DNA from: Symbiodinium sp. CCMP2592 | Lineage: Eukaryota; Sar; Dinophyceae; Suessiales; Symbiodiniaceae | Length of the DNA stretch: 64,000 bases | Reading direction: 5' to 3' | Assembly: GCA_905221615.1 (NCBI GenBank) | Contig: CAJNDT010003223.1 | Coordinates: forward strand, 310,001 to 374,000 | Shown: piece after piece, positions 1,735 through 30,382 of the stretch | Layout of the letters: every line of letters begins with the position of its first letter | Position numbering within the stretch: position 1 is the first letter of the stretch | Program-made: the position numbers and the translations under genes | The notes under the pieces: generated by a model | Databases searched by the model: none | Told to the model about the DNA's origin: nothing | What the model saw: only the letters and a program-made list of their open reading frames with translations

Positions 1735-1830
1735 ACCAAGACCACAGCGACTGCGACGACAACGACGATGAGAACGACAAGGACGATGACGACGACAAGG
1801 ACCATGACGACGACAAGGACCTCAAGGATC
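1735..1830 (+). repeat. ACGACR-type trinucleotide-rich tract
   Basis: Short degenerate GAC/ACG/AAG repeats with three copies of a GACGACAAGGAC-like unit. Low complexity; not treated as coding. Confidence 0.5.
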
Positions 1831-1869
1831 TATAGGGATTCTATAAGGGTATCAGGTTTAGGGCTCTTC

Positions 1870-1979
1870 TCGGAGCTTCATGGGTAGTTATAAGTGGGCT
1901 TCTTAGTAGGGTAGCTATAGTTATAACCCATATTAAAAGACCTATAACGCCACTTATAACTAGCCATGAACCTCCAAAT
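1870..1979. mobile_element. MITE family C copy
   Basis: GAGCTTCATGGGTAGTTATA at the left is mirrored by TATAACTAGCCATGAACCTC at the right, a ~110-bp palindrome of the family whose consensus ends are ACTTGGAGGTTCATGGGTAG. The outermost ACTTG is eroded here. Confidence 0.65.
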
Positions 1980-2149
1980 GTCTGCGTGCTCCGCCTCTAC
2001 GTACCTGTCGGTTAGCTCTGAAGGATTTAGGGATTTCGGTTTTGGGTTTAGGCTTCTGGGATATGTTGCGCTACAAGGAACCTCAGGGCACATAGCTACT
2101 CTATGTGAACGCAGCCGTCGGCATCGATCACTTGTCCAAGGCTGTCCAA

Positions 2150-3500: not shown

Positions 3501-3718
3501 TTCTAAGAACTACTTTAACGGCTCCTTAAAGAATCCCTTAAAGAATCCGTTAAAGAATTCCTCAAAGGAACCCTTATTTGGATGCATAGACACTCAAGGA
3601 CAAAGAAACGAAAGCACAAACCCACGCCTCCGTGTTATGGAAAGAACTCCAAAACCCTATTCTAACTACCAAGGCCTCTATATGGCAGTAGGGGTTTGCT
3701 TGGAATGTCACAGAAGCC

Positions 3719-4250
3719 GGTCTGCGACCCCTGAGTCGCAAGCCAACCTCGAGGAGTCGCTCGGCACGCGCTCGGTCCTTGCCTTACTCAGAATGCAGTG
3801 GTTTGTTCGATCCGATGAGCAACGCCTCCGGCCTTCTTGCTTCCTTCTGCCACCTGTCGAAACAAGCTGTGAATGGCATTCCAATGAGTTCCGGCGGTCT
3901 GCGACCCCTGAGTCGCAAGCCAACCCCGAGGAGTCGCTCAGCACGCGCTCGGTCCTTGCCTTACTCAGAATGCAGTGGTTTGTTCGATCCGATGAGCAAC
4001 GCCTCCGGCCTTCTTGCTTCCTTCTGCCACCTGTCGAAACAAGCTGTGAATGGCATTCCAATGAGTTCCGGCGGTCTGCGACCCCTGAGTCGCAAGCCAA
4101 CCCCGAGGAGTCGCTCGGCACACACTCGGTCTTCGCCTTACTCAGAATGCAGTGGTTTGTTCGATCCGATGAGCAACGCCTCCGGCCTTCTTGCTTCCTT
4201 CTGCCACCTGTCGAAACAAGCTGTGAAGAGCTTTCCAATGAGTTCCGGCA
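3719..4250. repeat. 177-bp satellite, first block (3 units)
   Basis: Units start with GGTCTGCGACCCCTGAGTCG at about 3719, 3896 and 4073. Each carries the short inverted repeat TGCGAC...GTCGCA and the stretch TGTTCGATCCGATGAG, which loosely recalls a tRNA B box. Open frames on both strands here arise from the repeat. Confidence 0.88.
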
Positions 4251-4325
4251 GCGGCTATGGCGAGCGTGGCTAGCAGCTGTAACAATGATGCAAGCAATAT
4301 TTGCAACTCAGAGAAGCCTCTACAC

Positions 4326-4412
4326 CCTGAGCCCAAAACCCTAAACCCCTAAACCCCAAACCCCTAACCCTTAAACCCCTAAACCCTAAACCCCAAAACC
4401 CCCAAACCCAAA
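4326..4412. repeat. CCCTAAA array between satellite blocks
   Basis: Degenerate CCCTAAACCCC units separating the two blocks of the 177-bp satellite. Confidence 0.8.
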
Positions 4413-4461
4413 TCCCCAAATAACCGCTTTCTTTCGTCGGCTCAGAGTCAAGGGTATTATA

Positions 4462-4566
4462 CAGACCTTCCAAAATCCTTTCATTAAGGAAAATACCTTA
4501 AATTATAGTAGGATCCCTAATGTGAATTAAGGTATATTCCTTAATTACGGGATTTTGGAAGGTCTG
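4462..4566. mobile_element. MITE family A variant
   Basis: Ends CAGACCTTCCAAAATCC and its reverse complement GGATTTTGGAAGGTCTG. The core TTATAGTAGGATCCCTAAT matches family A, but the terminal ten bases differ, so this is a subfamily. Confidence 0.7.
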
Positions 4567-4574
4567 GGTATACA

Positions 4575-5200
4575 GGTCTGCGACCCCTGAGTCGCAAGCC
4601 AACCCCGACGAGTCGCTCGGCACACGCTCGGTCCTCGCCTTACACAGAATGCAGTGGTTTGTTCGATCCGATGAGCAACGCCTCCGGCCTTCTTGTTTTC
4701 CTTTGCCACCTGTGGAAAGAAGCTGTGGATGAGTTCCGGCGGTCTGCGACCCCTGAGTCGCAAGCCAACCCCGACGAGTCGCTCGGCACAAGCTGGGTCC
4801 TCGCCTTACTCAGAATGCAGTGGTCTGTTCGATCCGATAAGCAATGCCTCCGGCCTTCTTGCTTCCTTCTGCCACCTGTCGAAACAAGCTGTGGATGGCT
4901 TTCCAATGACTTCCGGCGGTCTGCGACCCCTGAGTCGCAAGCGGAACCACGCGGAGAGCAGGCTTTTGCCTTAGTTAGAATGCAGTGGTTTGTTCGATCC
5001 GACGAGCAACGCCTCCGGCCTTCTGGCTGGCTTCTGTCACCTGTTGAAACAGGATGTGGACCGCTTTCCAATGAATTCCGCCAGTCCGCGACCCCCTGAG
5101 ACGCAAGCGTACCCAGGCGGAGGGTGGTCGGGCTCGCGCGGCGTCCTTGCCTTAGTCAGAATGCAGTGATCTGCTTGGCTCGTTGAGCAACGAGTTTGTT
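4575..5200. repeat. 177-bp satellite, second block (about 4 units)
   Basis: Units begin near 4575, 4740, 4917 and 5091. They diverge toward the right, and the last is recognisable only by the GCGACCCC and GAGCAACG segments. Confidence 0.85.
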
Positions 5201-5379
5201 CCGAGTCCTGGACTCGCTTCCTTCCGCGGTCCTGGCCGCAATGGACAAGAAACACATATCTTGATGCATTTCCCCGGCTCAGGCAGCAGCCAAGTCGTAC
5301 CAGGTCGTTCGAGCTGCCAGCACGAGTGCTGGCAGCCAGATGGCCTGGTCGAGATGCTGCTGCCCTAAACCCTAAACCC

Positions 5380-5482
5380 TACAGCAGAAGCCAGAAAGTT
5401 GGAATATGATTCTCCTAAGCCTTGTATGGTAAATTATAAGGTATCCTACCCTGAAACCATATTCCAACTTTCTAGCTTTTAC
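5380..5482. mobile_element. MITE family D, copy 1
   Basis: TACAGCAGAAGCCAGAAAGT at the left mirrors ACTTTCTAGCTTTTA at the right; ~100 bp, non-coding. Confidence 0.7.
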
Positions 5483-5538
5483 CTTAAACCGCAGGTCCAC
5501 GGCGGGTCGAGATGCTGCTGCCCTAAACCCTAAACCCT

Positions 5539-5640
5539 ACAGTAGAAGCCAGAAAGTTGGAATATGATTCTCCTAAGCCATGTATGGTAAATTATAAGGT
5601 ATCCTACCCTGAAACCATATTCCAACTTTCTAGCTTTTAC
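5539..5640. mobile_element. MITE family D, copy 2
   Basis: Near-identical to the copy 158 bp upstream; left end TACAGTAGAAGCCAGAAAGT. Confidence 0.7.
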
Positions 5641-5872
5641 CTTAAACCGCAGGTCCCCGGCGGGCACTCGGCCGTACCGGAACGCCTTCGGCAGGTCCTT
5701 GCAAAAAGATGGTGTTTGTTTGTCTAGGTGCGAAGTGTTCCGAAGGCCCGAGGGTCGGGCCATGTCGTCGAAGCCCTTGCTGGCCCGACCCCGTGTGTGA
5801 GCAATAGTAGCATCGCGGCGCAGCCAGGGTCTGTACTCGGTCCAGCTACAACTACTAGTACTACTACGACTA

Positions 5873-5979
5873 CTACGGTTGATGATATAAATCCTGCATT
5901 ACCCATAATAAGGGATATACCATAATTCCTATAGTTTAGGGTCCTGAAGGTAATGCAGGATTTATATCATCAACAGTAG
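5873..5979. mobile_element. MITE family E, copy 1
   Basis: TTGATGATATAAATCCTGCA and TGCAGGATTTATATCATCAA form perfect terminal inverted repeats around CCATAATAAGGGATATACC. A relative lies at 31211-31319. Confidence 0.72.
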
Positions 5980-6247
5980 TATTACTTCACATGCCCGGCA
6001 GTCTGTTCGTGTGTGAGCGCCAACAAGAGCTCTGGAAGCTTCAGCAAGTCTCAGGAACTGCTACAACTCTATTCAGAAACAGCCCAAACCCGTCCGAAGC
6101 CGTTCCGAAGCGTCGAACAATAGCAAAGTGCAGGCTTCACAATTCGAAGGACCGAAGAGGTCTCGATAATCATCTCACCATTCTGGAGGCCAGAAAACGC
6201 AAGGAGAGATGCCCTGTATTAAACAGGCCACCAGCGATTCCAAATAT

Positions 6248-6249
6248 AC

Positions 6250-6333
<84 letters not shown>

Positions 6334-6334
6334 T
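6248..6334. repeat. (CTA)n microsatellite
   Basis: About 28 uninterrupted CTA units; poly-Thr or poly-Ser frames across it are artefacts. Confidence 0.95.
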
Positions 6335-6464
6335 GCGAGAACTTATGTATAGATAATAAAGGGCTGCTGCTCTGTGTCTGATACGTATTCATGCACATAA
6401 GAGTGCGCATGAATGCATGTGTATGCGAATATGTATAGTTTTCTTTAGGCAATTAGTTCGTGAC

Positions 6465-7135
6465 CATCCCGCGCTCCCGGTTGTTGTACTTGAAAAATTT
6501 TGAAACATCAGTTGTATGGAGTTTACAGTGTCCTCTAGACCGTTGCGGACAGTGAGACGTTCAGGGTTGGGACTAGGGTGGCTGGGCTGGAGCCAGGGGC
6601 TGTGGGGCTGGATAAGAATTGAGAGGGCAGGACTGCAACTGCGGATGAGGGCTAGGAGGTTGTAATGTTTGAAAAAGCGGAGAGCAAGCACAAAGAAAAC
6701 GTTGCTAATTAAAAATATGTGCTAGATATCTAAGATTTTTGCGAGTTTATATAGCTTTTCCTTAGGACGCTGGTCTGTCACTATACAGTGCTCCTGGTTG
6801 TCGTACTTAAGAAATTTTGAAACAGCAGTTGTATGGAGTTTACAGTGTTCTCTAGACCGTTGCGGACAGTGGGTCGCTCAGGGTTCGGCGTAGAGGGGAT
6901 GGGCTGGAGCCAGGGGCTGTGGGGCTGGATAAGAGTTGATAGGGTAGGACTGCGAGCTGGGAATGAGGGCTTGGAGGTTGTAATGTTTGAACAAGCAAAG
7001 ATCAAGCGCAAAAAAAAACACTGCTAATTAAAAATATTTGCTAGATATCGAAAATCTCTCATGTTTATATAACTTTTCCTGCGGACGCTGGTCCGTCACT
7101 ATACCGTGCTCCTGGTTGTCGTACTTAAGAAATTT
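6465..7135. repeat. About 310-bp direct repeats, two full copies and a partial
   Basis: The segment TTTTGAAACA-CAGTTGTATGGAGTTTACAGTG followed by CTCTAGACCGTTGCGGACAG occurs near 6495 and 6815. The lead-in CTGGTCYGTCACTATAC recurs near 6770 and 7090. The two full copies are roughly 85-90% alike. No coding frame is convincing. This sits at the left margin of the 6.4-19.4 kb island and could be subterminal repeat of a large element (inference). Confidence 0.75.
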
Positions 7136-7680
7136 TGAAACAGCAGTTGTATGGAGTTTTCAATCTCTTCCCACGATATTCATATGAAACTATTGAATAC
7201 TCCAAAACTTTAACAATCTATATGGCTGCTCCATGCTCCTCCATAGGAAGTTGCTGTTCAATGTTTCGAGCTTTCACACTTAAAAAGATTTTCAACCAGC
7301 AGTTGTATGGAGTTTTCAATCTCTTCACAAGATTTTCATATAAAACGATTGAAAACTCCAAAACTTTAACATTCTATACGGCTACTCCATAGGACGTTGC
7401 GATTGAGTGTTTCAAGCCTTCAGACTTAAAAGGATTTTAAACCAGCAGTTGTATGGAGTTTTGAATCTCTTTCATATAAAACGATCGAATACTTCAAACC
7501 TTTAACAATCTATTCCCTACGAAGTTGCTGTTCAATGTTTCGAGCCTTCACACTTAAAAAGATTTTCAACCAGCAGCTGTATGGAGTTTTCAATCTCTTC
7601 CAAAGATTTTCATATAAAACTATTGATTACCCCAAAACTTTAACAGTCTATATGGCTATTCCATAGGAAGCTGCAAAATT
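7135..7680. repeat. About 150-bp tandem repeats, each with a hairpin
   Basis: Four units contain GTATGGAGTTTTCAATCTCT near 7148, 7308, 7452 and 7579. In the second unit GGAGTTTTCAATC and GATTGAAAACTCC form a perfect 13-bp stem across a ~26-nt loop, and the other units keep a weaker version. AACTTTAACAATCTATATGG and TTCAATGTTTCGAGC also repeat. Non-coding. Confidence 0.8.
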
Positions 7681-8038
7681 GCTAAAAGCCTCTTACCACA
7701 TATATGAAACTACCACATGTAACGTAAAAGTGACGAAAACGTATAAGGAAAGTCACATTCTCTCTCAGAGCTCAGGTTTCATGACCCTTGCTTGCAAGGA
7801 CAAGTACGTTGTAGGACATTGCAGGGCCCGCAGTCTGCCAGGCACTTTTCCATCATCCGAAACCTGTGACTGCAAGCGGAGTGTGCTAGAAAAATACATA
7901 AGTATTGCAAGACTGCGGTTTGTGCCGTGTGTCCACATATTTTGTCCGGCATATATGAAATCTGCTATGCATAGTACAACGGCTTTGCTATCTCACCAGC
8001 AACTGAGATGCCGTTTTTTCGTCTCCGGAAAAAACACC

Positions 8039-9107
8039 TTAGCCCTCGCTAAGGTACTTGGCCGTGGGGCTGTAGCACCGGTCCTGGTAGTCCCAGCGCC
8101 AGCCGACCGAAAAGTGCCGGATGGCACCGATAGGATGGAGTTCCTCCATCCGGGCAAAGGCAGTGATGAGTAGAGTTGGCCCGCCTAGAGTGTACTCCAA
8201 GCGGACCAACTTTCCTGCTTTTAAAGCATCGATCCTCACTACTTTGCCCGAAAGTCTCTCTTGAGGAGAGACATCAGACAGCTCACGGCACGGCGGCGTG
8301 TAGCGACCTGCAATGAAGCATCCGAGATTCTGCAGACGTTAAAATGGCACCCAAGACAATGCCTTCCAAACGCTCGATGGCTTTGCCAATGTTGGAATGA
8401 AGCTCGTTCTCCTTGTTGGGCACATGCCCCAAAGCCTCAAGGACACGTATTTATAAAGACACCTACTTCAGGGCTTGGGTCTCTGTGTTACCTGCCTCGT
8501 CGAAGATTTCAGGAGTTACCGCGAGAAGCTGGCGACCCAGCCAGTCCGAAGGAATGCCGGGAGCATGGTTAGTGCTTTCCTTCCAGCGGGCCTCATGGAA
8601 AAAAAATACGTCAAACCGTAAGAGCCAAAAAAAACACGACTCGTGCCTGAATGCATTCCTTTAGGAATTCCTGCTGCTCCCAGATCGTGCGCGAGGACTT
8701 CGGAGTCCTTAGAGAATTCCACAGGTCGGCTCTTGCTGCACCGGCAAGTGTAGCATTGTAGTGCAGCTAAAAATCTTGGACCACTCCGCCAGCCGTGCAT
8801 GCCAAGCTTGTAGCAAGGCAAGAAGAGTCACACGGAACGAGGCCCAGAGTTGCTCCGCTTTGGGAAGCCATGGTACTCCGTCACCGGGGGCCTCGCGAAG
8901 CCAGTTGTTTATGCTTTACAAGACTATGGCGTTAGAATAATCACAGTGGTTTGTAAGACGCGGACAGCGGCAGACGACGTCGCCTTGCGCTGACTTCCAG
9001 TCTTACCAGCTCGCCTGCCAGTCAACTGCGAGTTTACTTGCATTTCCACTCAACCTCGTTCGTCGCCAACCCTGCCTCTTGCCGTACCCTGAGACCCGCT
9101 GGGGCAT
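8039..9107 (-). CDS. Six-exon gene, function unknown
   Basis: Reads as about 250 residues from ATG at 9107 when spliced: exons 9107-9007, 8913-8768, 8735-8647, 8579-8496, 8435-8308 and 8234-8039. The introns are 93, 32, 67, 60 and 73 bp. Donors are GT for the first and last and GC for the others; all end in AG and frame is kept across each. The exon boundaries were found by eye; the 32-bp intron is least certain. Recognisable segments include SGYGKRQGWRR near the N-terminus, LPKAEQLWASFRV, VPNKENELHSNIGKAIERLE and the C-terminal GWRWDYQDRCYSPTAKYL. There is no signal peptide, membrane segment or motif I recognise. It lies about 0.9 kb downstream of the transposase end on the same strand, so it may be an accessory gene of the big element or an unrelated host gene. 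A further in-frame 5' exon upstream of 9107 cannot be excluded. Confidence 0.6.
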
Positions 9108-9299
9108 CGCTACTTCGGCGTTACCCTCAACAAAAACAGTCGTGAGCTGCTTAGCAGATCAAGGCTGCGGCGGCCGAGGCGTGCAAGGCGCTGCCACATG
9201 TGCTGACATGCAGGTCTGGATGTCCGACCCTGAACGCAAACCTAAGGGAAAAACACTCTCAACTCGATACAAACGGGAACTACTTTTTTAAGATCTATA

Positions 9300-10000
9300 T
9301 AGCAAAATCTCATACTAGAAGACATACAAACAAGAACTATTGCTTCCAAAACTACATACAAAGGAATATCTTTGAGCATACTATCTTGTTCATTCCAATC
9401 GAAAAAAGATAGATTCTACCGTCAGGGAGCTAGCTAACTATTGTTCTCATGCTTTGTAGCGTAAAAAAATCTACTGTGTCGGCATGGAGCAATTTTGGTA
9501 CATGTCGATCCATATCACAAAAAAGCAGCGACTTCATTCGCGCACAAATATCTAACTTTCTAATGTTTGGCATAACAAAAACTATCATTTGCAGTCGTTT
9601 TATGCATGAAACTATTATCAAAATAAAAAACCGTCTAGCACTGAAATAACGAATTGTTGTTGTCGCGTCAATGCACACATGTGTTCCGCGCGAAATTCCA
9701 AAAAGTACTCACATCAGGGATCTTGGTTGGCTAAGATTCAAGTCCCGTTAAGCAAAAATCTGCATCTCGAGCCTCAATGTTGGATCTCGCAACATATCTC
9801 GCAGGCACATCACTGACGCATGTTTTCTCAAAGACACAAAGTCGCAAACTCGTCAAGTGGATGCTTCGCATCAACATGATTGTCATTGCCTGGATCGCAC
9901 ATATTGGCATAGGTCTTGAGAACTTCCACGACAACCAACATCAGAAATCTGGTTACAGTCTACTCATAGATCGCACACAATATCCTATTTCATCGAGCAA
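9300..10000. other. AT-richer gene-free stretch
   Basis: Low-GC sequence with only short frames on either strand. It holds the 3' flank of the transposase gene. I see no terminal inverted repeat that I can pair with the far side. Confidence 0.4.
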
Positions 10001-10001
10001 C

Positions 10002-11577
10002 TTACGCAGCCGGTTTTCGGCCACGGACACCTGCTCGACGGAGGTTGTCCTGCCGATCCAACGTGTGAGGCGTTCGCAGTCTTTTCAATGAACTACTATG
10101 TACATTGCCTGCTGGTTTTTTGCGGACGCTTTCTTTGACTTTGGCACGCTCCTCTTCCCTCTGTGGGTGCAGCTGCAAGGGTGCTTTCTCGATCCTGGCA
10201 TTGCCTTGCAGCTGCTCGCACCATTCCCTCCACTGCTCAGAACTCCACATTTCCTTGGAACACGTGCGAGCCAACACCTCTGCCTCAGCCATCTGACGAG
10301 TTGTCTCGTAATAAAGAGCGGCATTGTGGGTCATGAGCTTGGAAAGTTGCAGAATCTTCAGCTTCAGGGACAAGGTCGTTTTGTGTATTTTTTGGGTCTC
10401 TCTGAAGAAATTGTTGATCTCGTGATGTAAAGATTCATTGGACGTGGTGCCGACAGGAAGCAAGCTGAGCCTCTTGGATGATATCATATGTCGGGCACGG
10501 AGGTTGTTGAGATACCACTCCGTCCGTGCTGCAGCCGCTGCCGTGTGTAGTAGCTGCACAACTTTGCGGTTCGGGCCAGGTACGACGCGATCCATGTCGT
10601 CACGGTAAACAGCTGCCACAGCGGCCAGAGACTGAGTCCACTCGCACCGCTCGAAGAAAGGAACGGAGCCATCCAAATTCTCCAGCAGCGCCGTCGCTTT
10701 CTTCAGAGGCATACTGCGATCCTCGATCTGTGACCGAGCTTTTTCTTCTTCCCGAGTTAGGGCCTTGCAGTTGTCGCCCCTGAAAACAGGTCCCCACGTC
10801 TTCTCAGTGCAATGTGGACTGTGTACAGTCAACTTGCGCAAGATGAGACGCAAAGTCTTAGTTAATGCTGTACGTTTGCGACCCGATGCATATTCGCAAG
10901 TCATCGCAAGATGGACTGGGTCGAGAGCTAGAACTTGCAGGTTCGGACAAATGTGACGAAGACTCTGCCATAGCCTAGTCGACGGGTTGTCGACAGCCAC
11001 GCATCGCACTTGCCGGAGGCCAGATGCTGGGAGATTGTTAGCCATGGCCTCGACAAGAACATCAGCCTCGTCTGTTGTCGTGGCACACAGCATAAGAACT
11101 GCGTTCGTTCGTCCACGACAAGTGACGACCTCAGTGCTCGCTTCTGCTGACTTATACAGACTTATACAACAAAAACAATCCAAGCAAAACAAACAATTGG
11201 CATAGGTGCAACCAAAAGGCCCGAGTCAGCGCTGTTTCTCCATGAAAAGCTGCTCGCATTTTTTCTTCGCGGGATGCCCTGGGGTGTGCCTGGCCCATGA
11301 TGGGCAAACAGCAGCGCAGCGTTGCGTCCATACTTACTACTTCGAACTCTTCATGATGGACTAGTTCCGCTTTTAGCTCTTGCTCCAGGCTTGTGATGCG
11401 CGGTGACATGAAAATGTCTTCGACCAATGGCCACCAGTGATTGACATGCCGAGGTAGGAGGCTGTTAGTCTCACCGGGGAAGGTGGCCAGAAGTCGAGCA
11501 TGGAGCGCGTACACCTGCAGAGCGAACTGCCTAGACTCTGTTATACCACATCTCATGCGCAGAGCTTCTTTGAAGGA
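10002..11577 (-). CDS. DDE transposase domain, MULE-like
   Basis: C-terminal part of the block, in two exons: 11577-11213 and 11136-10002, joined across a 76-bp GT-AG intron. The RNase-H-fold acidic triad can be proposed. The first Asp is in VVSMDATLRCCLPIMGQ. The second is in VRCVAVDNPSTRLWQ or in the following LQVLALDPVHLAM. The Glu is in TTSNESLHHEINNFFR. The order and spacing, with a His three residues after DP and the NE-x-xHxxIN helix, resemble MULE/IS256-type transposases. This is motif reading, not alignment. The C-terminus is basic (LKRLRTPH, AGVRGRKPAA), as expected of a DNA-binding tail. The protein would cut and join the element ends in the nucleus. It is fused in frame upstream to a C2H2 finger. 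The catalytic residues look intact, so this copy may be recently active. Confidence 0.68.
11137..11212 (-). other. GT-AG intron in transposase
   Basis: Donor TTTTG|GTTGCACC and acceptor AAGCGAG|CACTGAG. Removal keeps frame and joins ALTRAF to TEVVTCRG with one bridging codon. Confidence 0.6.
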
Positions 11578-11614
11578 CTACGACACAGACACTTCTGTAT
11601 TTTAAAACTCCTGC
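11578..11614 (-). other. 37-bp GC-AG intron
   Basis: Donor GCCAAG|GCAGGAG and acceptor GTCGTAG|TCCTTC. Splicing joins ILMCSAK to SFKEALRMRCG in phase 0. The exon frames on the two sides differ and both are open, so a short intron fits better than a shared frame. Confidence 0.6.
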
Positions 11615-12550
11615 CTTGGCGCTGCACATCAATATTTCCCGGAAGACCAGCTGACCGAATGATCGGGTGTAGTACAAATTACGTACTCGGCGCAGCTCGC
11701 CCTGCTGCACAGCTGCCAGAGACCAATATTGGGGACCGTCGCCTGTGAAAACAAGTCTTATCTCTTTGTCGATAAGCATGTGCTTGGTCGAGATAGTCTC
11801 GTCCAAGGATGCGGCAAGTAGACTAGCGCTGCGACGCAGGTAGTGCCTTAGAGGTTGTCGCCGGCATTGATCGTGGTCGTGGAGCGCAATGATGATCTTG
11901 AGTTGTTTCGTTCCACTAGCCACGAATTGCTTTCTCTCTGAGTGATACTGTCTGACATGCTCAAGAACACGATCCTGCCGATTATTATTCCAAGACCGCA
12001 TCGGACAAAAGGGACACACTGCACGCCCATTCTTCTTCACCTCTGAAGACACTTTGGCTGACTTCATGTTGAGTAAAGCAGTGACCTCATTGCGAAGTAC
12101 TTCCAGAAGTTTGTCACCCACTCTGGTCACGCTCTCATCATCATCCGCCGCGTCATCGTCTTCTTCTTTCTCGTCCACAACAGGCAACTCCAGGTCTTTA
12201 ACGAACTCGTCATATCCATGTTCCTTGCCGCCTGCCAAGGTGTCCAGAAGCATCTCATATTCCTTGTCTTCTGCATCACGTTCGTTCTTTGCGGGCTTTT
12301 GGTTCACGTAGAAGAAAAAGAGAATGTACTTACGATCGGTTGCTTCCGACAGCATGTGTGCAAGATGTTGGACAGGAAAAGCGTAGCTGACGTTGACATC
12401 CGTCACACAAATTTGCTCCCCCGGCAGGACCTCCATAGCAAGACTGTGCGGGTTGCCGTCCGTGGCAAGATGAAGAAGAACCTTGTGGCCTGACTTTAAA
12501 TTACCTGACGGAAGTCGAGCAAAGATGTGGAGCATCAACTTCTCGGCAAC
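11615..12550 (-). CDS. Protease C-terminal half, acidic linker and C2H2 finger
   Basis: Continues in frame from the polymerase exon across a 77-bp GC-AG intron. The start, VAEKLMLHIFARLPSGN, completes a putative papain-like fold: catalytic His in GNPHSLAMEV, and Asp/Asn in ICVTDVNVSYAFPV. That spacing recalls the H...DPN arrangement of C58/YopT-like and other papain-fold peptidases. An acidic linker follows, rich in Asp/Glu (EKEEDDDAADDDE), then a zinc finger C-x2-C-x15-H-x4-H (VCPFCPMRSW to HVRQYH). A ~120-residue helical region then leads to the transposase. The protease could mature a polyprotein or cleave host SUMO/ubiquitin-type targets, as ULP-like proteases of some MULEs are thought to do. 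Both roles are inference. Confidence 0.55.
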
Positions 12551-12627
12551 CTGCGAATACCTTCTTTGCCGGCGTCGCAAAAAAAAGTGTGCTCCGGGCC
12601 TTCTGTCATATCTGCCATGGAACTTGC
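12551..12627 (-). other. 77-bp GC-AG intron splitting the protease
   Basis: Donor GAGCAG|GCAAGTTCC is a perfect GCAAGT site. The acceptor is ATTCGCAG|GTTGCC. CAG|G is repeated at both ends, as is common in dinoflagellate introns. Joins HHLGLQEQ to VAEKLMLH. Confidence 0.72.
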
Positions 12628-14275
12628 CTGCTCTTGTAAACCAAGATGATGTAGTGCTGCGAGTATACAATTTCCTGGTTCACGCAGCTTCTCAGGACAC
12701 TCGACTGCTTTACTGTCGTTCACCTGCGTCAACAAAGCGTGAAAGGTGTATCGTTCTTTAGCACGAATATGGACGTCCAGGCCGGTTTCCTCGAAAATGG
12801 CATCGCTGCAGCTTTTACAGAAAGCTTTCACATCAGGCTGCGCGATGTCGCGATCTACTCTGATGCCATCAAAGTGCAATGACATGTGTTTGCTTTGCAG
12901 TGGCTGCACCTTGCCAAGCCAGGAATCTAGAACCAAATCTTCAGCAATATTCCAGAAGTAGGTCAGGACGGAAACGTCTGGCCTTTCTTTCATTTGTACC
13001 AAGGAAGGCCAAGCTGTGTCCTTGAGCACTGTCGCCGCTACCCACCGGCAAAACAAGGATGCCTGCTGCAGCTCCTGCACGAAGGTGTTGCCTGCAAGCT
13101 CCTGGGGTGGCGAGCCGCCATTCAAAATCTTTTGCAGCAGCAGCTTTCCTTCCGACAGAGGCAGCTTCAGTGTATTCTCGATAACATGCTTCCGCTCCTT
13201 GGCACAAAGACGCAAAGTCTCCTTGACTGCCGGCCAACACTCGTGCTTCGGCTGTAATTTGGTTAAGATTTGTAAGAGCAACGTGAAGGAGCAGTTCTCA
13301 ATGTCGAGATCTATCGTATCTGCCAATGCGACCGCCTGCCACGCGGTACCCAAATTCTGCACAGAATGACAGTCTCCGTATTTGCGAGTACGCACACACG
13401 GCAACTTGTACTTATAAGTGACATCAAGCTCGACAAAGCCGTCGCCTGCTTCAAAAGGACTTGCAGGTCGTACACCACTTGATGAAGACGTGCTCTGGCC
13501 TGGAGATGATGCTTCAAGTGCTGCGACAGAAGATTTCTTTCTTATAGCTCGACGAGTAAGCGTCTCTTTCGCTTTTGCTGTACATGGCTGCTCGCGAGGT
13601 TGCTCAGTCGTTTGTGGAAGCTGCTTCTCCAGTAAGTCCAGCAGTCCGCCAGCACAGTCTTCGTGTTTCCGTAGTTTGTCATGAAAGCTTCGCCAAAGAG
13701 CAAGTTTCTCTAAATGCTGCAGAGATTTACGGCCTCTTCCGGACTCTAACCTGGATATCACGTGAGAGTAGAAATGCACGAGGAGTTCGGCATTTGCAGT
13801 TCGAGCAGCATTGCGTTCCACAGCGTCCCACAGTTTCCTGGCATTGAGACGCTCCCGCACCACGATTGCCTCAGACTCATACCCGACGATGAGGACATCC
13901 TCCAAGGACTTCGTGCATGGTATGGTCGGAATGAAATTCTCTGGTTCTGATTTTGAATCCACTGGAAGAAAAACATTTTCCTTGACCAACTCCTCGAACA
14001 TGTCCTTGCTATATCCGAGCTTGGCTTTGGCAAACCGTGTCCACCAAGTCTTTGTCACCTGTGCCTTGTCTGTCTTCAAGAAATATTTCACGGTTGCCGC
14101 CTGTGCTTTCTCAACAGGCGTGGTGTGTTGCACTGCCTGGTCGGCCTCCTCCTCAGTCCGCTTCAGCATCGCGGCGAAATTGCTGTGCGGATTCTCCGCG
14201 GTCGGCTCCTGCGCACACAGACCATCCAATGAAAGGGAACGACCCACGCATATTGACGGAACCTCTTGATAAGGT
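12628..14275 (-). CDS. Family-A-like DNA polymerase palm plus protease Cys region
   Basis: About 545 residues. Residue numbers are counted from a GTG at 14247; the open frame extends further upstream. Residues 311-328 (TIDLDIENCSFTLLLQIL) match the DxDxxN motif A of the PolA-like replicases seen in large viruses and mobile elements. Residues 350-378, with K and ILNGG, occupy the place of the motif B helix. LHFDGIRV at 457-464 is a motif C candidate, and the ETGLDVHIRAKER tail fits what follows motif C in such proteins. After it, EPGNCILAALHHLGL (Cys527) looks like the nucleophile of a papain-like protease completed by the next exon. Residues 1-300 are helical and unassigned, with a Ser-rich linker near 240-262. 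The likely role is element DNA synthesis. The assignment rests on recalled motif patterns, not on a search; the exact 5' boundary is unknown. Confidence 0.58.
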
Positions 14276-14430
14276 CTATATTATCTTTACAGCATAGCAC
14301 CTTGACTACAGACAGAGAGAAAAAAAGAAAGAGGGAGAGGCATAGAAAGAAAAAAAAAGAAAGAGAGAAAGAAAGAAAGAAATAAAGAGAGAAAGAATGA
14401 GACAAATATATGCAAACGAAAGAAAAACAG
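14276..14430 (-). other. Probable intron with pyrimidine-rich tract
   Basis: On the coding strand this stretch is a run of CTTT/CTTTT repeats ending in CTGTCTGTAG, between the open frames of the helicase and the polymerase. The donor (near GATCG|GTCTG) and phase could not be fixed. Part of the DNIDLIKRFRQYAW frame at its 3' edge may be exon. Confidence 0.4.
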
Positions 14431-15445
14431 ACCGATCACTAGTAGCTGGACTCTTAGGCAAGTAAATGCGCTTGTGGTGCTGGTCCTCCCGAGGACGCAG
14501 GCCACAAGCTTCTCTGACTTTGCGCTCCGTCAGGCCGCTTAAGGCGTAGTCTTCGATCAATTGAAAACAGTCCTGTCGAGAGTAATGAGATTCGAAGCCG
14601 TGCTGCTGTTGTAACGCAGCTGCAATAGCCGGACCGCTTTCGAGAAAACTTCGCAGGGTGGGATCCTTCTCGAAGATGCCATCAACATCTGGATCCTTGT
14701 AAGCATCTCCAAAGGATGTGTTCTCCACAAAGATTGGCTGAGGCTTCCACACCAGGCAGCGTCTGTAAATTGAGTTGAAGTTAGTTTCCATGACGTTTCG
14801 GAAAGTCATGATTTTGTTGGTCTCGAATCTCTTGAATCCACAAACCCGCATCATCTTTGTAACGAAACCGTACGGTTTGCGACCCGCAAGATCATCAGCC
14901 GACATGAATTTCTTGTATAAGTCCTGCTGGAAGTGCCGGTGGGTTTCCGGGGCTTCCTGGGCGGTGATGATCCAACAGTGAGCAAACTGCTCGAGCTGCT
15001 TTCGCATCTCTTCTTCATTATGGAAGAGATTCGGGTCGATGAATGCGTGGTTGTGACTGTATACAGCAGCCAGGTGGCTGCTGAACAGAGACTGGCCAGT
15101 TCCGCCGGCAGATTCGCCGATAAAGCAGCGATCGATGTTTTCACCATGTTTCGCTAGCCCGATTGCCGCCAGGGTCGCCTTGTAGTACTGCTGATTGCAC
15201 CAAAAGGTTTGCTTGACAAACTTTTCGAGTCGAAGCTTGGCGTCACGTAGTACAGGATCCGGCAAGTGTGGCTGCAAAGGATGGGAGATTCTGACATACA
15301 GATTGTTCTCTGGCGATGGCAAGACCAGCTTTACATGTTCAGTAGGACTTACGTCATAAACCACCGAGATGTCTTGGTAGGCGCACCCAGCCTGCCGCTG
15401 AGAGGGTGTGTCACACCATTGGATGAGGAAGTGAAGGAGCCGTCC
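14430..15445 (-). CDS. SF3 (D5-type) helicase
   Basis: The frame is open upstream of the GTG at 15364 to about 15445 (preceding residues include QWCDTPSQRQAGCAYQD). Residues below count from that GTG. The Walker A loop, GESAGGTGQS (83-92), has Gln in place of the usual Lys. Walker B-like HCWIITAQEAPE (129-140); YKKFMSADDLAGRKPYG (150-166) fits the SF3 B' motif. FETNKIMTF (180-188) carries the sensor Asn of motif C, and IYRRCLVW (199-206) the arginine finger. Such helicases unwind DNA as hexamers at replication forks of viruses, plasmids and mobile elements. The missing Lys would normally weaken ATP hydrolysis; it may be a family trait or a sign of decay. The neighbours, nuclease and polymerase, support a replication role. 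Confidence 0.75.
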
Positions 15446-15547
15446 TTAGCTGCTCTGCGAAAGCCACTTTGCAGGACTTAACAACTGCATCGTTGAGGGT
15501 TACAGTCTACAAAAACACTTAGACAGCAGGCTTTAAACTCCTTACAC

Positions 15548-16100
15548 CTAGAGTCGTTCTTCAAGAAAATCCTTCTGCAGCGGTGCCAAGACTTTCGCAA
15601 GCATGTAGGCTGTCTTGTCCGGCCAACCTGAATGCGGGGCAGGCTCGGCTTCCTGTGCAGCTCGTCCCCTACGAGGCATTGCCGTTGCGTCTGCCATCAC
15701 GGCTGTGTCTTCGCAAGCCTCCAGGAAATCATGGACGTTGTTGAATTCTGCCAGCAGTCGAACAATTTCTCTATGAATAGCGGCATCAGAGCGATCAGTA
15801 GCTGGAGACATAAGCCGAAAAAGGCCCTCTAACTTCAACAGAAATTTTTTTAGCCTGTAAAATGTTGACTCCGGTGGCACTCCGTTGTAGGGGTCAAACG
15901 CTCCATCACTATGGTATAAGTAGCATACACCGCGATGAGCACGAATGTATCTGTCGCCTTCAATCATCCAAATAAGACTGACGAGATCACGGACGAAGAT
16001 ATCCGTGAAGCGCGTCCGGTAAACGTTTAATGCCGAAGCAGCGAGGCGCACCATGTCTTCGGGCCAGGTTGGTTGCCTAACACAATATACTCGATGAGTT
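15548..16100 (-). CDS. D5_N-like helical region preceding the helicase
   Basis: About 180 residues in the frame that overlaps the nuclease frame by 151 bp. It starts effectively near PTWPEDMVRLAASAL and runs through RFTDIFVRDLVSLIWMIEG and VPPESTFYRLKKFLLKLEG, with an internal low-complexity tail before the stop at 15548. Its place directly upstream of an SF3 helicase is where D5_N/primase-associated domains sit; sequence similarity is only suggestive. Between 15445 and 15548 there is no open frame, so an intron probably links it to the helicase. Joining to the nuclease upstream needs a one-base shift between 16040 and 16100. Confidence 0.45.
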
Positions 16101-17532
16101 TCCTCGCTTGCTCCTTTACAGACACCACCGGGAAGTTGTTCTCGACAGTAGGACATGTAGACAAGGAAAAGGAACATGCTGTTGCCGTCAAGTCGAATAA
16201 GTCCTCGAAGTCTGCGTGAGAGTTGGTTGCACCTGGCATCAAGCGCCTTTTTTTCGCAGTGCTAATGGCTTCCTCAGGAAGGTCGCCAGATGGTATGGCC
16301 AAGGCTAGGTCGTTCTGAGCTTCCGAACCATTCTGAGTCAATGCCAGTGCTAAAGCTTCATTATCCTGCGTTGCTCTGTCAGCTGGCGACTCTGCCACAT
16401 CCATCTCTTCCTGTTCTGCAGCCAGGCGTGCGCTGAAGGATGGCTGCGAAGCGCCCGCATCGGGATCTGCGCCGCCCGCCACATCCTGCCAAGGAACATC
16501 TTTACCGCCTGCGTTTGCCGTTAGCATAGCAGCCACGTCGTGCGACATGTTGGGAACCTCGTCAAGGAATGGACCTGTCTCCATGTTGTCAGGATGAAGG
16601 CAAACGACGTACATCGCAGACACAACATAGCCATAGTGATGCTCTAGGATGTATTTGTACGTGTTCAGCTGCAGGCGGTAGTGCCAACCTGCGCAGTCTG
16701 GAATATGATTCAAAGGCGAATGCATATTCCGAAATTTGTTGGTGTATTTCATGCGCAGGTTTTTGGTTCGTTTCCAATCGAACAGGACCAGGCTGTTGTT
16801 CGATGTTTTGGCCACGAAGTCGATGCAACCGGCCAAACTGTGCTCCTTTGCAAAAATGCACCACTCGGTGCGAAATGCCAGCAAGGGACGGGAGAATTCT
16901 CTTAGGAATTGACCAAACAACTTCAGCTCAGGCCAATGACCAGCTCCGAAACCGCCGTTCATAAGGACCTCGATTTGGAGATGCATCCATGTACCGCGGT
17001 GAGCTGCATCTCGAGAATTCTGAAGCCACATGTGCTTGATCTCCTCGGCAGTCATGGGCAGGAGCATGCCGTTTGTCTGCACGCTGGAATATTCAGGGCG
17101 CGGCCATCTTGAACTGTTTTGCATGTTGGCGATTGCACCGTCCGCATCGAAAATTTCAGCGAATTTGTGAACTAAGCCAGTCACGGAAATGCTCATCGGG
17201 ACGCCGTCCACATAGTAGACGTGAGTCTCTGACAGGAAGTTGATTCGCTTGTCCCGATCATGTTCGTGCAGGCGAGACAGCAAGCTGCAATCTGGCTGAG
17301 CAGCTGGCAGATGCGTAAAATCCTGCGGTATCAAGTCGAGCAGCAACCGAGGCGCCTGCACGCAAGCTTCGATGGGAATGCGAATGCTTGACGTGCCTTG
17401 TCCGTAAGTAGGACAACAAGCGGGACTAAGTCCGACCAACCATTGCTGCTCTTGTTGCGGTTGCATTGCAACCTGCGTCGTTTCTCTCGCCGGCACCATG
17501 CTTCGGACCGACTCGAGCTGAAACGCAACCAT
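16027..17532 (-). CDS. PD-(D/E)XK nuclease, Cas4/RecB-like
   Basis: 501 residues from ATG at 17532. Residues 101-135, with HVYYVDGVPMSISVTGLVH, form the N-terminal strand region typical of this nuclease group. The catalytic parts follow in order: RGTWMHLQIE (179-188, His184), RTEW (221-224), GCIDFV (235-240, Asp238), LFDWKR (250-255, Asp252 and Lys254) and LQLNTYKY (287-294). All active-site residues of the RecB/Cas4-type fold are present. The C-terminal ~170 residues are low in order and rich in Ala/Glu/Gln. It may process DNA ends during replication or recombination of the element. The last ~50 codons overlap the next frame, pointing to a frameshift or an unseen intron. Whether it is a separate gene or the N-terminus of a polyprotein is open. 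Confidence 0.78.
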   Translation of the reverse strand: MVAFQLESVRSMVPARETTQVAMQPQQEQQWLVGLSPACCPTYGQGTSSIRIPIEACVQAPRLLLDLIPQDFTHLPAAQPDCSLLSRLHEHDRDKRINFLSETHVYYVDGVPMSISVTGLVHKFAEIFDADGAIANMQNSSRWPRPEYSSVQTNGMLLPMTAEEIKHMWLQNSRDAAHRGTWMHLQIEVLMNGGFGAGHWPELKLFGQFLREFSRPLLAFRTEWCIFAKEHSLAGCIDFVAKTSNNSLVLFDWKRTKNLRMKYTNKFRNMHSPLNHIPDCAGWHYRLQLNTYKYILEHHYGYVVSAMYVVCLHPDNMETGPFLDEVPNMSHDVAAMLTANAGGKDVPWQDVAGGADPDAGASQPSFSARLAAEQEEMDVAESPADRATQDNEALALALTQNGSEAQNDLALAIPSGDLPEEAISTAKKRRLMPGATNSHADFEDLFDLTATACSFSLSTCPTVENNFPVVSVKEQARKLIEYIVLGNQPGPKTWCASLLRH

Positions 17533-17649
17533 GTATTGAACGTCATGTTGTTAGACACCAGATGTAATTCCTCAGCAGCCCCGCCGCAAAAGTCCTTCCC
17601 TTCCTCCTTCTCGGACGACGCAGTAAAGGTCATGCCGTTCTGCAATTTC

Positions 17650-18682
17650 TGCTCTCTGCTGTAAACGTAATCCACAGCATGTGGGAAAGCCTCTGCCGTT
17701 TCAGTACTTCCACCGATGTAATCAATCAACTGGTTCGGACATCGTGGACACAGTCGTTCAGGAAGGTGTACAGCATGAACCGAACAAACCCATGTGTCGC
17801 AGTGTGGACAGACACACCCGCGAGGCAGATGCAGCCCGTGGTCCCTGTTGCAAATAACGCACCTGATTGTGGCGTTGTTGTCGACGAGAGATGGTACTGG
17901 GCGATACTGAAGCAAGACAAAGTTCCTGGTAGGCCGGCCATAGACCCAAAAAGCTTTGCCAAAGCACATGGCGCAGCTGGAGCTCCTTCACGAGCACGGG
18001 CTGTGGCTACGTTCACGCCATCCAGTGCAATCTGGAACATTCTCGGATTCCATCGGAAGACGATGCGATGGGTGTGGTCGGGTTGAAACCGAATTGTTCG
18101 GGCACTCATGTGTGGTTGGGGTGGACCATTTCCCAATCCAAACGAGGCTTGTGCATTCTCAAAAATATTCTCCAACATGCAGTAGGCATGCGTCCGAGAA
18201 CGCAAGTCACACCAGTCTCGGACTCCAATATATATGCCGACTGTGTTGGGCGGCAGAATGATGTCAAATACAGCATTTCCCATCAAAGGACCGGTTGACT
18301 GAAACCCTGTCCCTGGCATATTTGGCACAACTGCAGGACCAGGGCCGCCCAACATGGCTGTCGCGCTCCAGTCCAAGAGCATATTGCGAGGAAAAACTGT
18401 AAACATGGTGAGCTGACGAACGTTGATGGTGACGACACGCGCAGACATGTAAGCTTCCATCATCCATCTCAGCTTCATGGGAAGTTGAAATTCTTCAGTG
18501 TTCATTGTCACAAGCTTGCCTTGCCAGTGTCGACGATCCCGCACGGCGCGAAGCATTGTCTTGGAAGCAGACGCTAGCATCTTGAGATAGTCAAACGAAA
18601 AGTAAAATCCTGGCAATTCCGCGAGCAGCTCATCCAACACGGCGCCTCCTTCATACTCCTCCACTTTGCATCTCATGTCCAC
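17650..18682 (-). pseudogene. Beta-sandwich (ConA/SPRY-like) plus Cys-rich finger protein, frameshifted
   Basis: Starts with ATG at 18682. The N-terminal ~50 residues (LLAELPGFYFSFDYLKML...RRHW) loosely recall an F-box. A beta-rich section follows with FDIILPPNTVGIYIGVRDW and HRIVFRWNPRMFQIALDGV, suggesting a ConA-like/SPRY fold. Near 17955 the frame must shift by one base at a run of five T (coding strand) to continue as FWVYGRPTRNF and the finger CVICNRDHGLHLPRGCVCP...CPRCPNQL. The downstream paralogue has the same two parts in one frame, which shows the break. An assembly indel in the T run is as likely as true decay. It ends about 100 bp upstream of the nuclease start on the same strand. 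Confidence 0.6.
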
Positions 18683-18710
18683 TCGACCTAGGTGGCTTTA
18701 CACAACCTGA

Positions 18711-19420
18711 TCAGAGACTATTTGAAAAACTTAAAAGCACAACAACTTCCACACTCCGCGAAGCTTTCACGTAACAGCAAATATCAGCCAAGCAACACAC
18801 AGGCACGCTGCAATGGTTCTGGGAATCTTCACCACCCACGTAGTCCCATAGTTGATTGAAGCAGCGTGGACACATGTCTGTTGGGTTTTGGAGTACGTGC
18901 GATGCACAGATCCATGTGCAGCAGTTGGGACACACGCGCCATCTGGGTAGGCAAAGATCATGATCTCTGTGGCAAAGAAAACAAGTAATGGAAGCATTGT
19001 GCTGAATGGGAGCTGGAACAGGGCGATACCGAAGCTCCTGCGCCACATTCGTCGTGCCAGGCCGAACGTACACCCACAAAAAAAACTTGGCCAGTGGACC
19101 TGGGAGCGCCGGTGAACTCTCCCTAGGTCGGATTCTGGCAACTCCGACACCATCGATAATCAGCTCCATCACGTCTTGCTTCCATCGAAGCAAAACACGA
19201 TGAGATTGCTGAGCTTGCAAAGACACCCGCTGTGGTTTGCGGTGAAGCTGCGGTGGCAGATCGCCCGAAGCGAAGGAAAGTGTTTCACTTTCCGTGTAAA
19301 TATTATCAAAGCGGAAGAACGATTGCTTCCTTCCGCTTCGATCTCCCCAGTCACGAACGCCAAGGTACATGCCCACTGCGTTGGGGGGCAGAATAACATC
19401 GAACACAGCAGTGCCCAGCA
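18711..19420 (-). CDS. Paralogue of the ConA/finger protein, 5' end lost in gap
   Basis: The open frame enters from the N gap. FDVILPPNAVGMYLGVRDWG, HRVLLRWKQDVMELIIDGV and the finger CFLCHRDHDLCLPRWRVCPN...CPRCFNQLWDYVGG align segment by segment with the neighbour at 17650-18682, at roughly half identity by eye. A distinct C-terminus (CCLADICCYVKASRS) runs to the stop at 18711 and may be intron read-through. The finger has paired C-x2-C and C-x2-C groups of a RING/B-box-like pattern. Binding partner unknown; a tandem duplication is evident. Confidence 0.6.
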
Positions 19421-19520
19421 NNNNNNNNNNNNNNNNNNNNNNNNNNNNNNNNNNNNNNNNNNNNNNNNNNNNNNNNNNNNNNNNNNNNNNNNNNNNNNNN
19501 NNNNNNNNNNNNNNNNNNNN
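19421..19520. other. Assembly gap (100 N)
   Basis: Exactly 100 N, the usual placeholder for unknown length. It truncates the gene at 18711-19420. Confidence 1.
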
Positions 19521-19865
19521 GGGGGCAGGGGGCAGCAGAGAGGGAGAGCTGGGGCTGGGGGTGGAGGCCGTGGGGGCGGGCTGGGGGGGAGAGGGGGCAA
19601 AGGCAGGGAGAGAAGGGGGAGCTGGCTGGGGCTGGGGTGGATGGGGCTGGGCTGGGGGTAGAGGGCGGGGAGGGAGAGCTGGCGGAGGCGGGCGGCTGGA
19701 GTTGGGCTGGAGGTAAAGGGAAGGGGCAAAAACCGGTGTAGGGGGCAGGGGCAGAGAGAAAAGAGTTGTGGGGCGGGTGGAGGCTGGTGGGGGCGGGCGG
19801 CTGGGGCTGGGCTGGGAGCTGGCTGGGTCAGGGGGCTGGAGCTAGAGGCTGGGGGCTGGGTGGGC
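19521..19865. repeat. G-rich degenerate repeat
   Basis: GGGGCTGGGG, GGGGGCAGGG and GGAGGCGGGC variants with strong G/C strand asymmetry. Potential G-quadruplex DNA. Gly-rich frames here are artefacts. Confidence 0.85.
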
Positions 19866-21030: not shown

Positions 21031-21097
21031 GAATTGATATAGTATTGATAAACAAAGCAAAGCCATACGTCAAATAGACCCTAAAGGTCCTACGTAC

Positions 21098-21166
21098 AAA
21101 CCCCTAAACCCTAAACCCCTAAACCCTAAAAGCCCCTAAACCCCAAACCCTAAACCCTAAACCGAT
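21098..21166. repeat. CCCTAAA array
   Basis: Degenerate CCCTAAA/CCCCTAAA units, the first telomere-like tract after the 6.4-21.0 kb island. Confidence 0.8.
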
Positions 21167-29450: not shown

Positions 29451-29699
29451 ATAGTGATTTTAGGTTACCTGGTGCCACAATATAATGAGACCAGGATGGT
29501 TTATGTCATACTTACGTCCTAGCATGATACTCCAGTATAAGGAATATGCCCCCAAATCCCTCATAAAACACCGAACCGCTGAGCTTGGCGGCCTAAACGC
29601 TCCCACGGAGCCCAGAATTCGAAAGCCCTCGATTCCTTTACCTCCAGGTCACAACTGTAGTCCTAACCATCGGAGCCCTGTGGACTGCAAACATCTGAG

Positions 29700-30094: not shown

Positions 30095-30164
<70 letters not shown>

Positions 30165-30236
30165 GAGTAGAAGTAGAAGTAGAAGTAGTGGTAGAAGTAG
30201 TAGAAGTAGTAGAAGTAGTAGAAGTAGTAGTAGAAA

Positions 30237-30313
<77 letters not shown>

Positions 30314-30382
30314 CTAGTAGTAGTCGTAGTAGTCGTAGTAGTAGTAGTAGTAGTAGTAGTAGGAGTAGAAGTAGTAGTAGTA

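Follow-up and report, generated by a model that had tools for sequence, protein, structure and literature searches.

Predicted enzymes encoded at the locus

The window analysed here is a 64,000-nucleotide stretch of the genome of the dinoflagellate Symbiodinium sp. CCMP2592 (contig CAJNDT010003223.1; G000:C3223:310001-374000), and the genome searched with it comprises 1,098,105,373 bases in 5,383 contigs. The minus strand of window positions 10002-17550 encodes a colinear block of predicted enzymes, which is the coding core of a far larger transposon of 19-30 kb. Open reading frames (ORFs) of the window were read stop-to-stop on this strand, and the core order from 5' to 3' is PD-(D/E)XK nuclease, D5N-SF3 helicase, polymerase-like domain, papain/OTU-like protease, zinc finger and DDE-like transposase. 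An earlier note, made from the letters alone, had described a transposon-like unit of about 7.5 kb with its parts colinear on one strand, and this colinearity was confirmed. A DNA search of the same genome with positions 10002-11500 recovered near-identical copies on contigs C4918, C1391 and C646, which together with the window we call family A, and copies about 70% identical to the window on C5046, C802, C147 and C4874, which we call family B. More diverged lineages are referred to by their locus numbers (L035 to L038).

The nuclease lies at 16027-17550 and carries the motifs GCID (16807-16836), DWK (16762-16791) and QxxxY (16645-16680); the D, DWK and QxxxY motifs were present in all three sequences of alignment A4. 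The window nuclease matches the exonuclease family phrog_298 with an E-value of 2.7e-14, and among the core parts this predicted identity alone is secure by family search. The D5N-like region at 15548-16261 was named by its position N-terminal of the helicase. By itself it gave no family match in Pfam and PHROGs scans of the window protein, and in L036 it shares one frame with both nuclease and helicase. The SF3/D5-like helicase follows at 14306-15445, with a Walker A motif GGTGQS (15071-15124) in which the lysine is replaced by glutamine, and the end of its ORF enters a pyrimidine-rich intron-like stretch. Its match to the VapE-like family PF05272 lies below the curated cut-off of 25 bits, both for the window (E 1.6e-4, 21.7 bits) and for family B (E 1.3e-4, 21.9 bits).

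The polymerase-like domain shares the ORF at 12535-14280 with the putative protease cysteine, which stands in a PGNC motif at 12640-12678. Its motifs are an Arg (13372-13395), DLDIEN (13264-13314), K-x7-NGG (13105-13155) and HFDG (about 12856-12882). All six sequences compared contain the Arg-bearing hairpin, DxDI, GK followed by G(G/A), and HFDG; the Arg, the two Asp and the Lys expected of a TV-Pol are kept in every one of them, with no Arg four residues ahead of the Lys (RxxxK). From its motifs, which fit the TV-Pol/PolA type, the domain is likely a polymerase. The profile searches returned nothing credible. Alignment A1 of the polymerase had no credible match in PHROGs or NCBIfam, and hhalign of the six sequences against nine phage PolA sequences gave a probability of 0.1 out of 100 and an E-value of 0.57, the profiles being small (Neff 2.3 and 3.4). 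A TV-Pol reference sought in Microcystis phage LMM01 was not identified. Solved structures queried with two core proteins and four core profiles likewise yielded nothing credible. The 'PolA-like' label of the earlier note accordingly fits the motifs and finds no echo in the profiles.

The ORF at 11531-12679 contains the C-terminal half of the protease-like domain (His at 12428-12478, Asp at 12377-12412), a C2H2-type zinc finger (11942-12016) and the region preceding the transposase. The protease-like motifs GNC, PH and D follow the papain/OTU order. GNC was found in five of six sequences, L035 carrying Ser in place of Cys, and PH was present in family B, L038, L036, L037 and the window, with no profile match in Pfam. 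For the zinc finger, a weak Pfam match to PF13894 (E 0.012) was obtained in L036.

The transposase is divided between a D1 exon at 11152-11577 (VSMDAT, 11308-11343) and a D2/E exon at 10002-11225 (D2 at 10968-11003, LDPxH at 10890-10931, E at 10395-10451). Residues D59, D82, E244, E249 and N251 are invariant in five sequences. The D1 motif (S-x-DAT) was read in the window, family B, L035, L036 and L037, and the exon was not located in L038. L035 and L036 read through from D1 to D2 and E without a change of frame; the L036 ORF has 487 amino acids (aa) and a spacing of D-81-D-189-E. We consider the enzyme to be DDE-like, with a candidate RNase H fold. Its sole transposase-family match was a weak one to DDE_Tnp_ISL3 (E 0.0089), in one of five sequences. 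The MULE transposase gave no Pfam match up to an E-value of 10 with the window protein and the five members of alignment A2 (HMMER filters on); for the KDZ transposase the A2 members gave none either, whether Pfam holds a KDZ model being unchecked. The 'MULE-like' transposase of the earlier note was thus not supported, and membership in MULE was rejected.

Overall, polymerase, protease and transposase had no significant family match in Pfam, PHROGs and NCBIfam scans. The enzyme classes named in the earlier note differ in standing: the nuclease is upheld by its family match, the helicase match stays under the cut-off, and the other three are recognised by motifs that are kept in diverged families.

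Colinearity, reading frames and selection

Colinearity was counted genome-wide for the polymerase, helicase and transposase. The protein searches scored the best 78 of 149 polymerase, 107 of 210 transposase and 117 of 341 helicase candidates, so that the counts are lower bounds. They located the polymerase at no fewer than 82 places, the transposase exon at 131 and the helicase at 119, which merge into at least 77, 101 and 102 loci, respectively. At 71 of the 77 scored polymerase loci a transposase lies downstream on the same strand, 1,231-2,237 bp away, and no polymerase locus has an opposite-strand transposase neighbour within 15 kb. A helicase lies upstream on the same strand within 3 kb, again at 71 of 77. 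Counted from the transposase, helicase and polymerase both stand in order at 65 of 101 scored loci; secondary pieces of transposase loci already listed were left out of the helicase-colinearity count, and the merged transposase loci still number 101. Helicase and polymerase remain colinear in lineages down to about 30% identity. The parts of the block move and evolve together as one evolutionary unit.

Reading frames in other copies join the parts directly. L036, on C1299, has one 1,767-aa frame from the nuclease through the zinc finger (nuclease residues 136-253, D5N 501, helicase 723-781, polymerase 1203-1354, protease 1415-1514, zinc finger 1623), followed by the transposase ORF. In L035, on C1533, a single frame of at least 1,463 aa (about 1,463-1,470) holds the terminal part of the helicase together with polymerase, zinc finger and transposase. 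Polymerase, protease and zinc finger share one 893-aa frame in family B and one 915-aa frame in the family A copy on C646. The helicase was also seen within 2,148-aa open frames at C89:307755-308699 and C3619:9670-10614, which exceed every frame described above.

In the window and in C4918, the polymerase-protease junction is a frame break (12535-12679 in the window) and not an intron. Three in-frame introns had been proposed in the earlier note to link the last three parts. Intron-like interruptions do separate D1 of the transposase from the zinc finger on one side and from D2 on the other; an intron between polymerase and protease was rejected on the evidence of the continuous family B and C646 frames. 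A further intron-like stretch separates helicase from polymerase, and nuclease and D5N region lie in different frames in the window copy.

Selection was assessed between families A and B for five segments. The ratio of non-synonymous to synonymous substitution (dN/dS) was 0.16 for the polymerase, 0.14 for the stretch from protease to zinc finger and 0.07 for the transposase exon. For the nuclease the proportion of synonymous differences (pS) was saturated at 0.80, with a non-synonymous proportion (pN) of 0.30; for the helicase pS was saturated at 0.85 and pN was 0.10, at 84% amino acid identity. Since dN/dS is low and pS is far above pN, these five segments have been kept by selection.

Ends, target site duplications and copies of the element

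The element in the window runs on the minus strand from 21097 to 1673 and measures 19,425 bp, including a 100-N assembly gap at 19421-19520, which replaces the 7.5-kb unit proposed before. Measured between its ends, the C4918 copy is 28.8 kb long and the C5046 copy 30.0 kb; the C802 element measures 35.1 kb, gap included, and the C147 element, with an internal deletion, 19.6 kb. About 8 kb of the C4918 copy is absent from the window, by gap or deletion: in the C4918 copy 9.6 kb separate the 5' end from the base matching 19420, where the window retains 1.6 kb in addition to the gap.

The 3' terminal inverted repeat (TIR) occupies 1673-1703 on the minus strand, the element ending at 1673. The window, C4918, C646 and all four copies of family B share this 31-mer without change, and it recurs with two mismatches in C1391; apart from these terminal 31 bases, families A and B are dissimilar near the 3' end. 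The 5' TIR lies at 21071-21097, minus strand (GTACGTAGGACCTTTAGGGTCTATTTG). The repeats are imperfect: of 31 bases, 23 agree when the 3' end is reverse-complemented and set against the 5' end. The window, C4918 and C147 each have a single upstream place with a 23/31 match to the reverse-complemented 3' end, the runner-up places reaching at most 19/31, and in the window 21097 was therefore taken as the other end of the element. With up to three mismatches allowed, the genome gave 159 matches to the 3' 31-mer and 224 to the 5' 27-mer, and none to the reversed control of either.

Ends were paired among the first 100 places of each kind. At least 38 correctly oriented pairs were obtained among these matches, spaced 4.2-38.7 kb, and no wrongly oriented pair within 60 kb; among the 5' matches listed, 65 lie on contigs within the span of the 3' list, and 38 of these had a partner. 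Twenty-seven of the 38 paired elements among the matches listed are 7.7-11.6 kb long. Such short elements with the same ends, mostly of 8-12 kb, are presumably non-autonomous and moved in trans. At C3580:196490-224378 one listed 3' end serves two 5' ends, 13.2 and 27.9 kb away, an arrangement that suggests that members of one family inserted in tandem or inside one another.

Target site duplications (TSDs) were compared in 24 elements, namely 21 of the 38 pairs together with C4918, C5046 and C4874, the 5' flank L060 (C3756) being left out. A 10-bp TSD was exact in 17 of the 24 and had at most one mismatch in 20; the remaining four elements differ at 2, 3, 6 and 6 of the 10 positions. At 9 or 11 bp none of the 24 elements matched, even with one mismatch allowed. 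Swapped flanks matched exactly in 37 of 552 combinations and with at most one mismatch in 62 of 552, which is frequent because many targets are AT repeats. The TSDs are clear outside simple repeats in C147 (ATAGACCTAT), C4475, C1247, C3112, C3557, C802 and C4874. In the window, flank comparison placed the TSD at 1663-1672 on the 3' side (TTAGGGGTTT in element orientation) and, identical to it, at 21098-21107 on the 5' side; taken alone this is weak evidence because the target lies in a TTTAGGG-like repeat. Inverted repeats with a TSD of fixed length are what characterises a TIR-type DDE DNA transposon, and both were found here. MULEs have TSDs of 8-11 bp, a range that includes 10 bp without making it specific, and Polintons have TSDs of 6 bp. 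The comparison of copies that the earlier note had called for thus yielded common ends, inverted repeats and duplications, and no copy whose boundaries split the block was seen among the window, C4918 and the internally deleted C147, all from one genome.

Several copies are recent and nearly identical. The window and C4918 are 99.7% identical over 6669-19420 and 99.6% over 1821-6677. C5046 shares 99.9% identity with C802 and C4874 over 20 kb; with C147 the figure is 99.96-99.97%, over 4.7 and 10.9 kb.

Individual copies have been rearranged. The C147 copy (L023, L024) has lost 10.3 kb including nuclease and helicase, and keeps the part from polymerase to transposase and both ends. The C646 copy (L016, L018) is interrupted at the base matching 10314-10317. 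The insert there measures about 33 kb, has inverted ends (CTGGGCGGCCTTTAGCAGGGAATGAGG) and a duplication of 4 bp (TCTT), and is probably a second, unrelated giant transposon. Relative to the window, the C4918 copy (L011) contains a 1.2-kb insertion between the bases matching 6669 and 6677, bordered by the short repeat CTTTTTCAA and perhaps a small transposon.

Other features of the element and the window

Upstream of the core, ORFs at 17331-19841 on the minus strand encode repeated modules that we named F-box-like, SPRY/LamG-like and RING-like zinc modules. Their Pfam matches are weak (F-box-like E 0.031 in family B, Laminin_G_2 E 0.083 in the window). The modules were also found in L019 (2764-6378) and L009 (from 9538), and in family B they form an in-frame fusion with the nuclease. 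Judging from these resemblances, they are possibly ubiquitin-ligase-like proteins carried aboard the transposon. A family B accessory ORF (L019) also holds an extra partial copy of the helicase, at C5046:62363-62719.

The 3' part of the element (2120-5192, minus strand) is rich in tandem repeats, with off-register self-matches at 2120-3500 and within 3719-5192, and the ORFs there are repeats. Beyond the element, the window contains long trinucleotide-type microsatellites at 29464-30730 and 41274-41849, which are open in several frames simultaneously. The genome carries 429 exact copies (217 + 212) of the 21-base dinoflagellate spliced leader, its reversed control occurring nowhere, and these mark the host as most likely a dinoflagellate.

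Interpretation

An element with common ends and 10-bp TSDs is present in many copies, some of them near-identical and recent, and its colinear, conserved core is under purifying selection in the segments tested. That the element replicates itself is plausible from its enzyme content. We therefore think it probable that these elements make up a superfamily of large dinoflagellate DNA transposons which encode their own replication and integration set. The narrower proposal, on which we stay just short of evenly balanced and which we offer tentatively, is that of a new superfamily of eukaryotic DNA transposons that replicate themselves, with a TV-Pol/PolA-like primase-polymerase as replicase, an unusual SF3 helicase, a protease of its own and a previously undescribed family of DDE transposase.

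A possible course of transposition can be outlined on this basis. The core would be translated as one or two long polyproteins, for which frames of 1,767 aa and at least 1,463 aa exist, and these would be cut by the element's own papain/OTU-like cysteine protease. The zinc-finger DDE transposase might then bind the imperfect inverted repeats, free the element and insert it with a 10-bp stagger. The SF3 helicase would unwind the freed or nicked element, the TV-Pol/PolA-like enzyme would copy it, perhaps with self-priming, and the PD-(D/E)XK exonuclease might trim the ends or clear the displaced strand.

Several observations weigh against such a self-replicating transposon. The Walker A lysine is glutamine (GGxGQS) in all five lineages that cover it (window, L019, L038, L036 and L035), and since this lysine is missing, ATPase activity of the helicase is doubtful; the protein is otherwise highly conserved and may be an altered ATPase. 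No known polymerase was matched by the polymerase-like domain in phmmer, profile or hhalign searches. The window copy is frame-broken between polymerase and protease, perhaps also between nuclease and D5N region, and a good 10-bp duplication is absent in 4 of 24 elements. In the best-candidate search, 6 of 77 polymerase loci had no detected transposase and 6 of 77 no detected helicase, and 25 of 101 transposase and 26 of 102 helicase loci stood with neither partner detected nearby. Some of these are accounted for by decay, contig ends or divergence, the last at least in part because five transposase loci lacking a scored polymerase keep a helicase upstream; free-standing copies are possible. 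Replication and excision of the element, finally, are steps that we infer.

The most serious rival is an ordinary cut-and-paste DDE transposon, whose replication-like enzymes would not copy it and would serve donor-site repair, end processing or regulation, and whose copies would rise through host replication and gap repair. The ends, inverted repeats and 10-bp TSD are those of a normal DDE transposon, a helicase without its Walker A lysine suits this account, and so does the predominance of 7.7-11.6-kb elements among the listed pairs. Against it, purifying selection acts on both helicase and polymerase in the comparison of family A with family B, and the two stay colinear down to about 30% identity; this is difficult to account for if the enzymes do not serve the element, and we judge the rival unlikely. 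Accidental proximity of neighbouring host genes or unrelated fragments would explain why several window ORFs are interrupted or mutually out of frame. It is refuted in this genome by the 71 polymerase-transposase pairs among 77 loci, where about 0.02 would be expected by chance, and by the continuous single frames of other lineages, and its probability is negligible.

A viral origin, either as an endogenous virus or as a capsid-losing descendant of a virophage or a polinton-like virus that had acquired a DDE transposase, has precedents in its favour: the Oxyrrhis paper (PMC12721341) mentions polinton-like viruses in which PolA and an SF3 helicase are fused, and Sputnik has a TV-Pol with a D5 helicase (PMC2579912). 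Hosts of the dinoflagellate type also carry true endogenous viruses, as many capsid genes were counted in dinoflagellate genomes by a survey of protist viruses (PMC10120064). No double jelly-roll capsid, packaging ATPase or other capsid or packaging gene was recognised when the core and ten more ORFs or parts of ORFs, a set short of every ORF, were scanned with Pfam. Viral contigs scanned with polymerase, helicase and transposase patterns, and prokaryotic genome contigs scanned with the helicase profile, gave pattern matches and no relative by tblastn, and blastn of phages with positions 10002-15445 found no relative. The helicase precedes the polymerase, whereas that of Sputnik V13 is C-terminal (PMC2579912). 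We regard this origin as distinctly improbable, and return to the self-replicating transposon as the preferred reading.

If that reading is correct, it would represent a second, unrelated route to a self-synthesizing element, and transposons would have gained replication machinery more than once. As the ends occur in hundreds and some copies are 99.9% identical, these elements may also have a bearing on the large size of dinoflagellate genomes.

Comparison with known systems

The literature searches found no element with the present enzyme set, in agreement with the earlier note; they covered titles, the beginnings of abstracts and term counts, with Repbase and most subscription papers outside their reach. 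In the literature found, Polintons, casposons and pipolins have a family B polymerase, and one abstract defines self-synthesizing transposons by it (PMC7385651). Polintons/Mavericks typically measure 15-25 kb, up to 40, and code for a polymerase of their own, a cysteine protease and an integrating enzyme of DDE type (PMC6431247, PMC11071308); 'Maverick' repeats are described as enriched at domain boundaries in the Breviolum paper (PMC11071213). The present element resembles them as a large eukaryotic DNA element with a cysteine protease-like, a polymerase-like and a DDE-type enzyme. It differs in its in-line SF3 helicase and exonuclease and its 10-bp TSD, and no protein-primed PolB, retrovirus-like integrase, capsid or packaging ATPase was recognised in the ORFs scanned: PolB had no Pfam match in the long ORFs, not every short ORF being included, and the integrase no rve match in the Pfam scans. 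Membership in the Polintons was rejected on these grounds. The earlier claim of a transposon-like unit distinct from Polintons, in a dinoflagellate, agrees with this, with the joint travel of the parts and with the 429 spliced-leader copies.

Teratorn is likewise a DDE transposon combined with a DNA replication set (PMC6431247, PMC5601938); it is a 180-kb fusion of herpesvirus and piggyBac in fish, with other enzymes. Helentrons share a large multi-domain protein that may include a helicase and an OTU-like cysteine protease (PMC6431247), and differ by a rolling-circle Rep where the present element has a DDE-like enzyme and a 10-bp TSD. Polinton-like viruses with PolA-SF3 helicase fusions also join a PolA-type polymerase to an SF3 helicase, the present polymerase being PolA-like in its motifs; they have capsids and usually a tyrosine recombinase and a GIY-YIG endonuclease (PMC12721341), in contrast to the DDE-like transposase, the 10-bp TSD and the lack of a recognised capsid here.

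Further parallels are the elements that combine a TV-Pol with a D5 helicase, of which CcPol of SCCmec, an island in the Nephroselmis plastid and Sputnik V13 are examples (PMC2579912). TV-Pols are described as having a conserved hairpin Arg, two catalytic Asp and a fingers RxxxK motif (Iyer et al. 2008, PMC2579912), and a TV-Pol with a partner protein is reported to synthesise DNA without a primer (PMC10061031). Compared with these published features, the present element shares the hairpin Arg, the two Asp, the fingers Lys and an adjoining D5/SF3 helicase, and linkage to a D5-like helicase in a mobile element, which is a TV-Pol trait, was found at the 71 of 77 scored loci given above. It differs by the glutamine in Walker A, the RxxxK Arg that was not seen, the missing profile match to phage PolA, and the protease and transposase in line. 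It also has a PD-(D/E)XK nuclease in the same frame in L036, while TV-Pols were never linked to nuclease domains according to Iyer et al. 2008 (PMC2579912). Should the identification hold, the element would be a living, capsid-free TV-Pol transposon of the kind that Iyer et al. 2008 considered a possible precursor of Sputnik (PMC2579912), and an example of the combination of a nucleic-acid-primed polymerase with an integrase that has been named as a potential source of novel large transposons (PMC6431247). It would then offer a concrete system in which to test a proposed origin of virophages and related viruses from capsid-free polymerase-helicase transposons.

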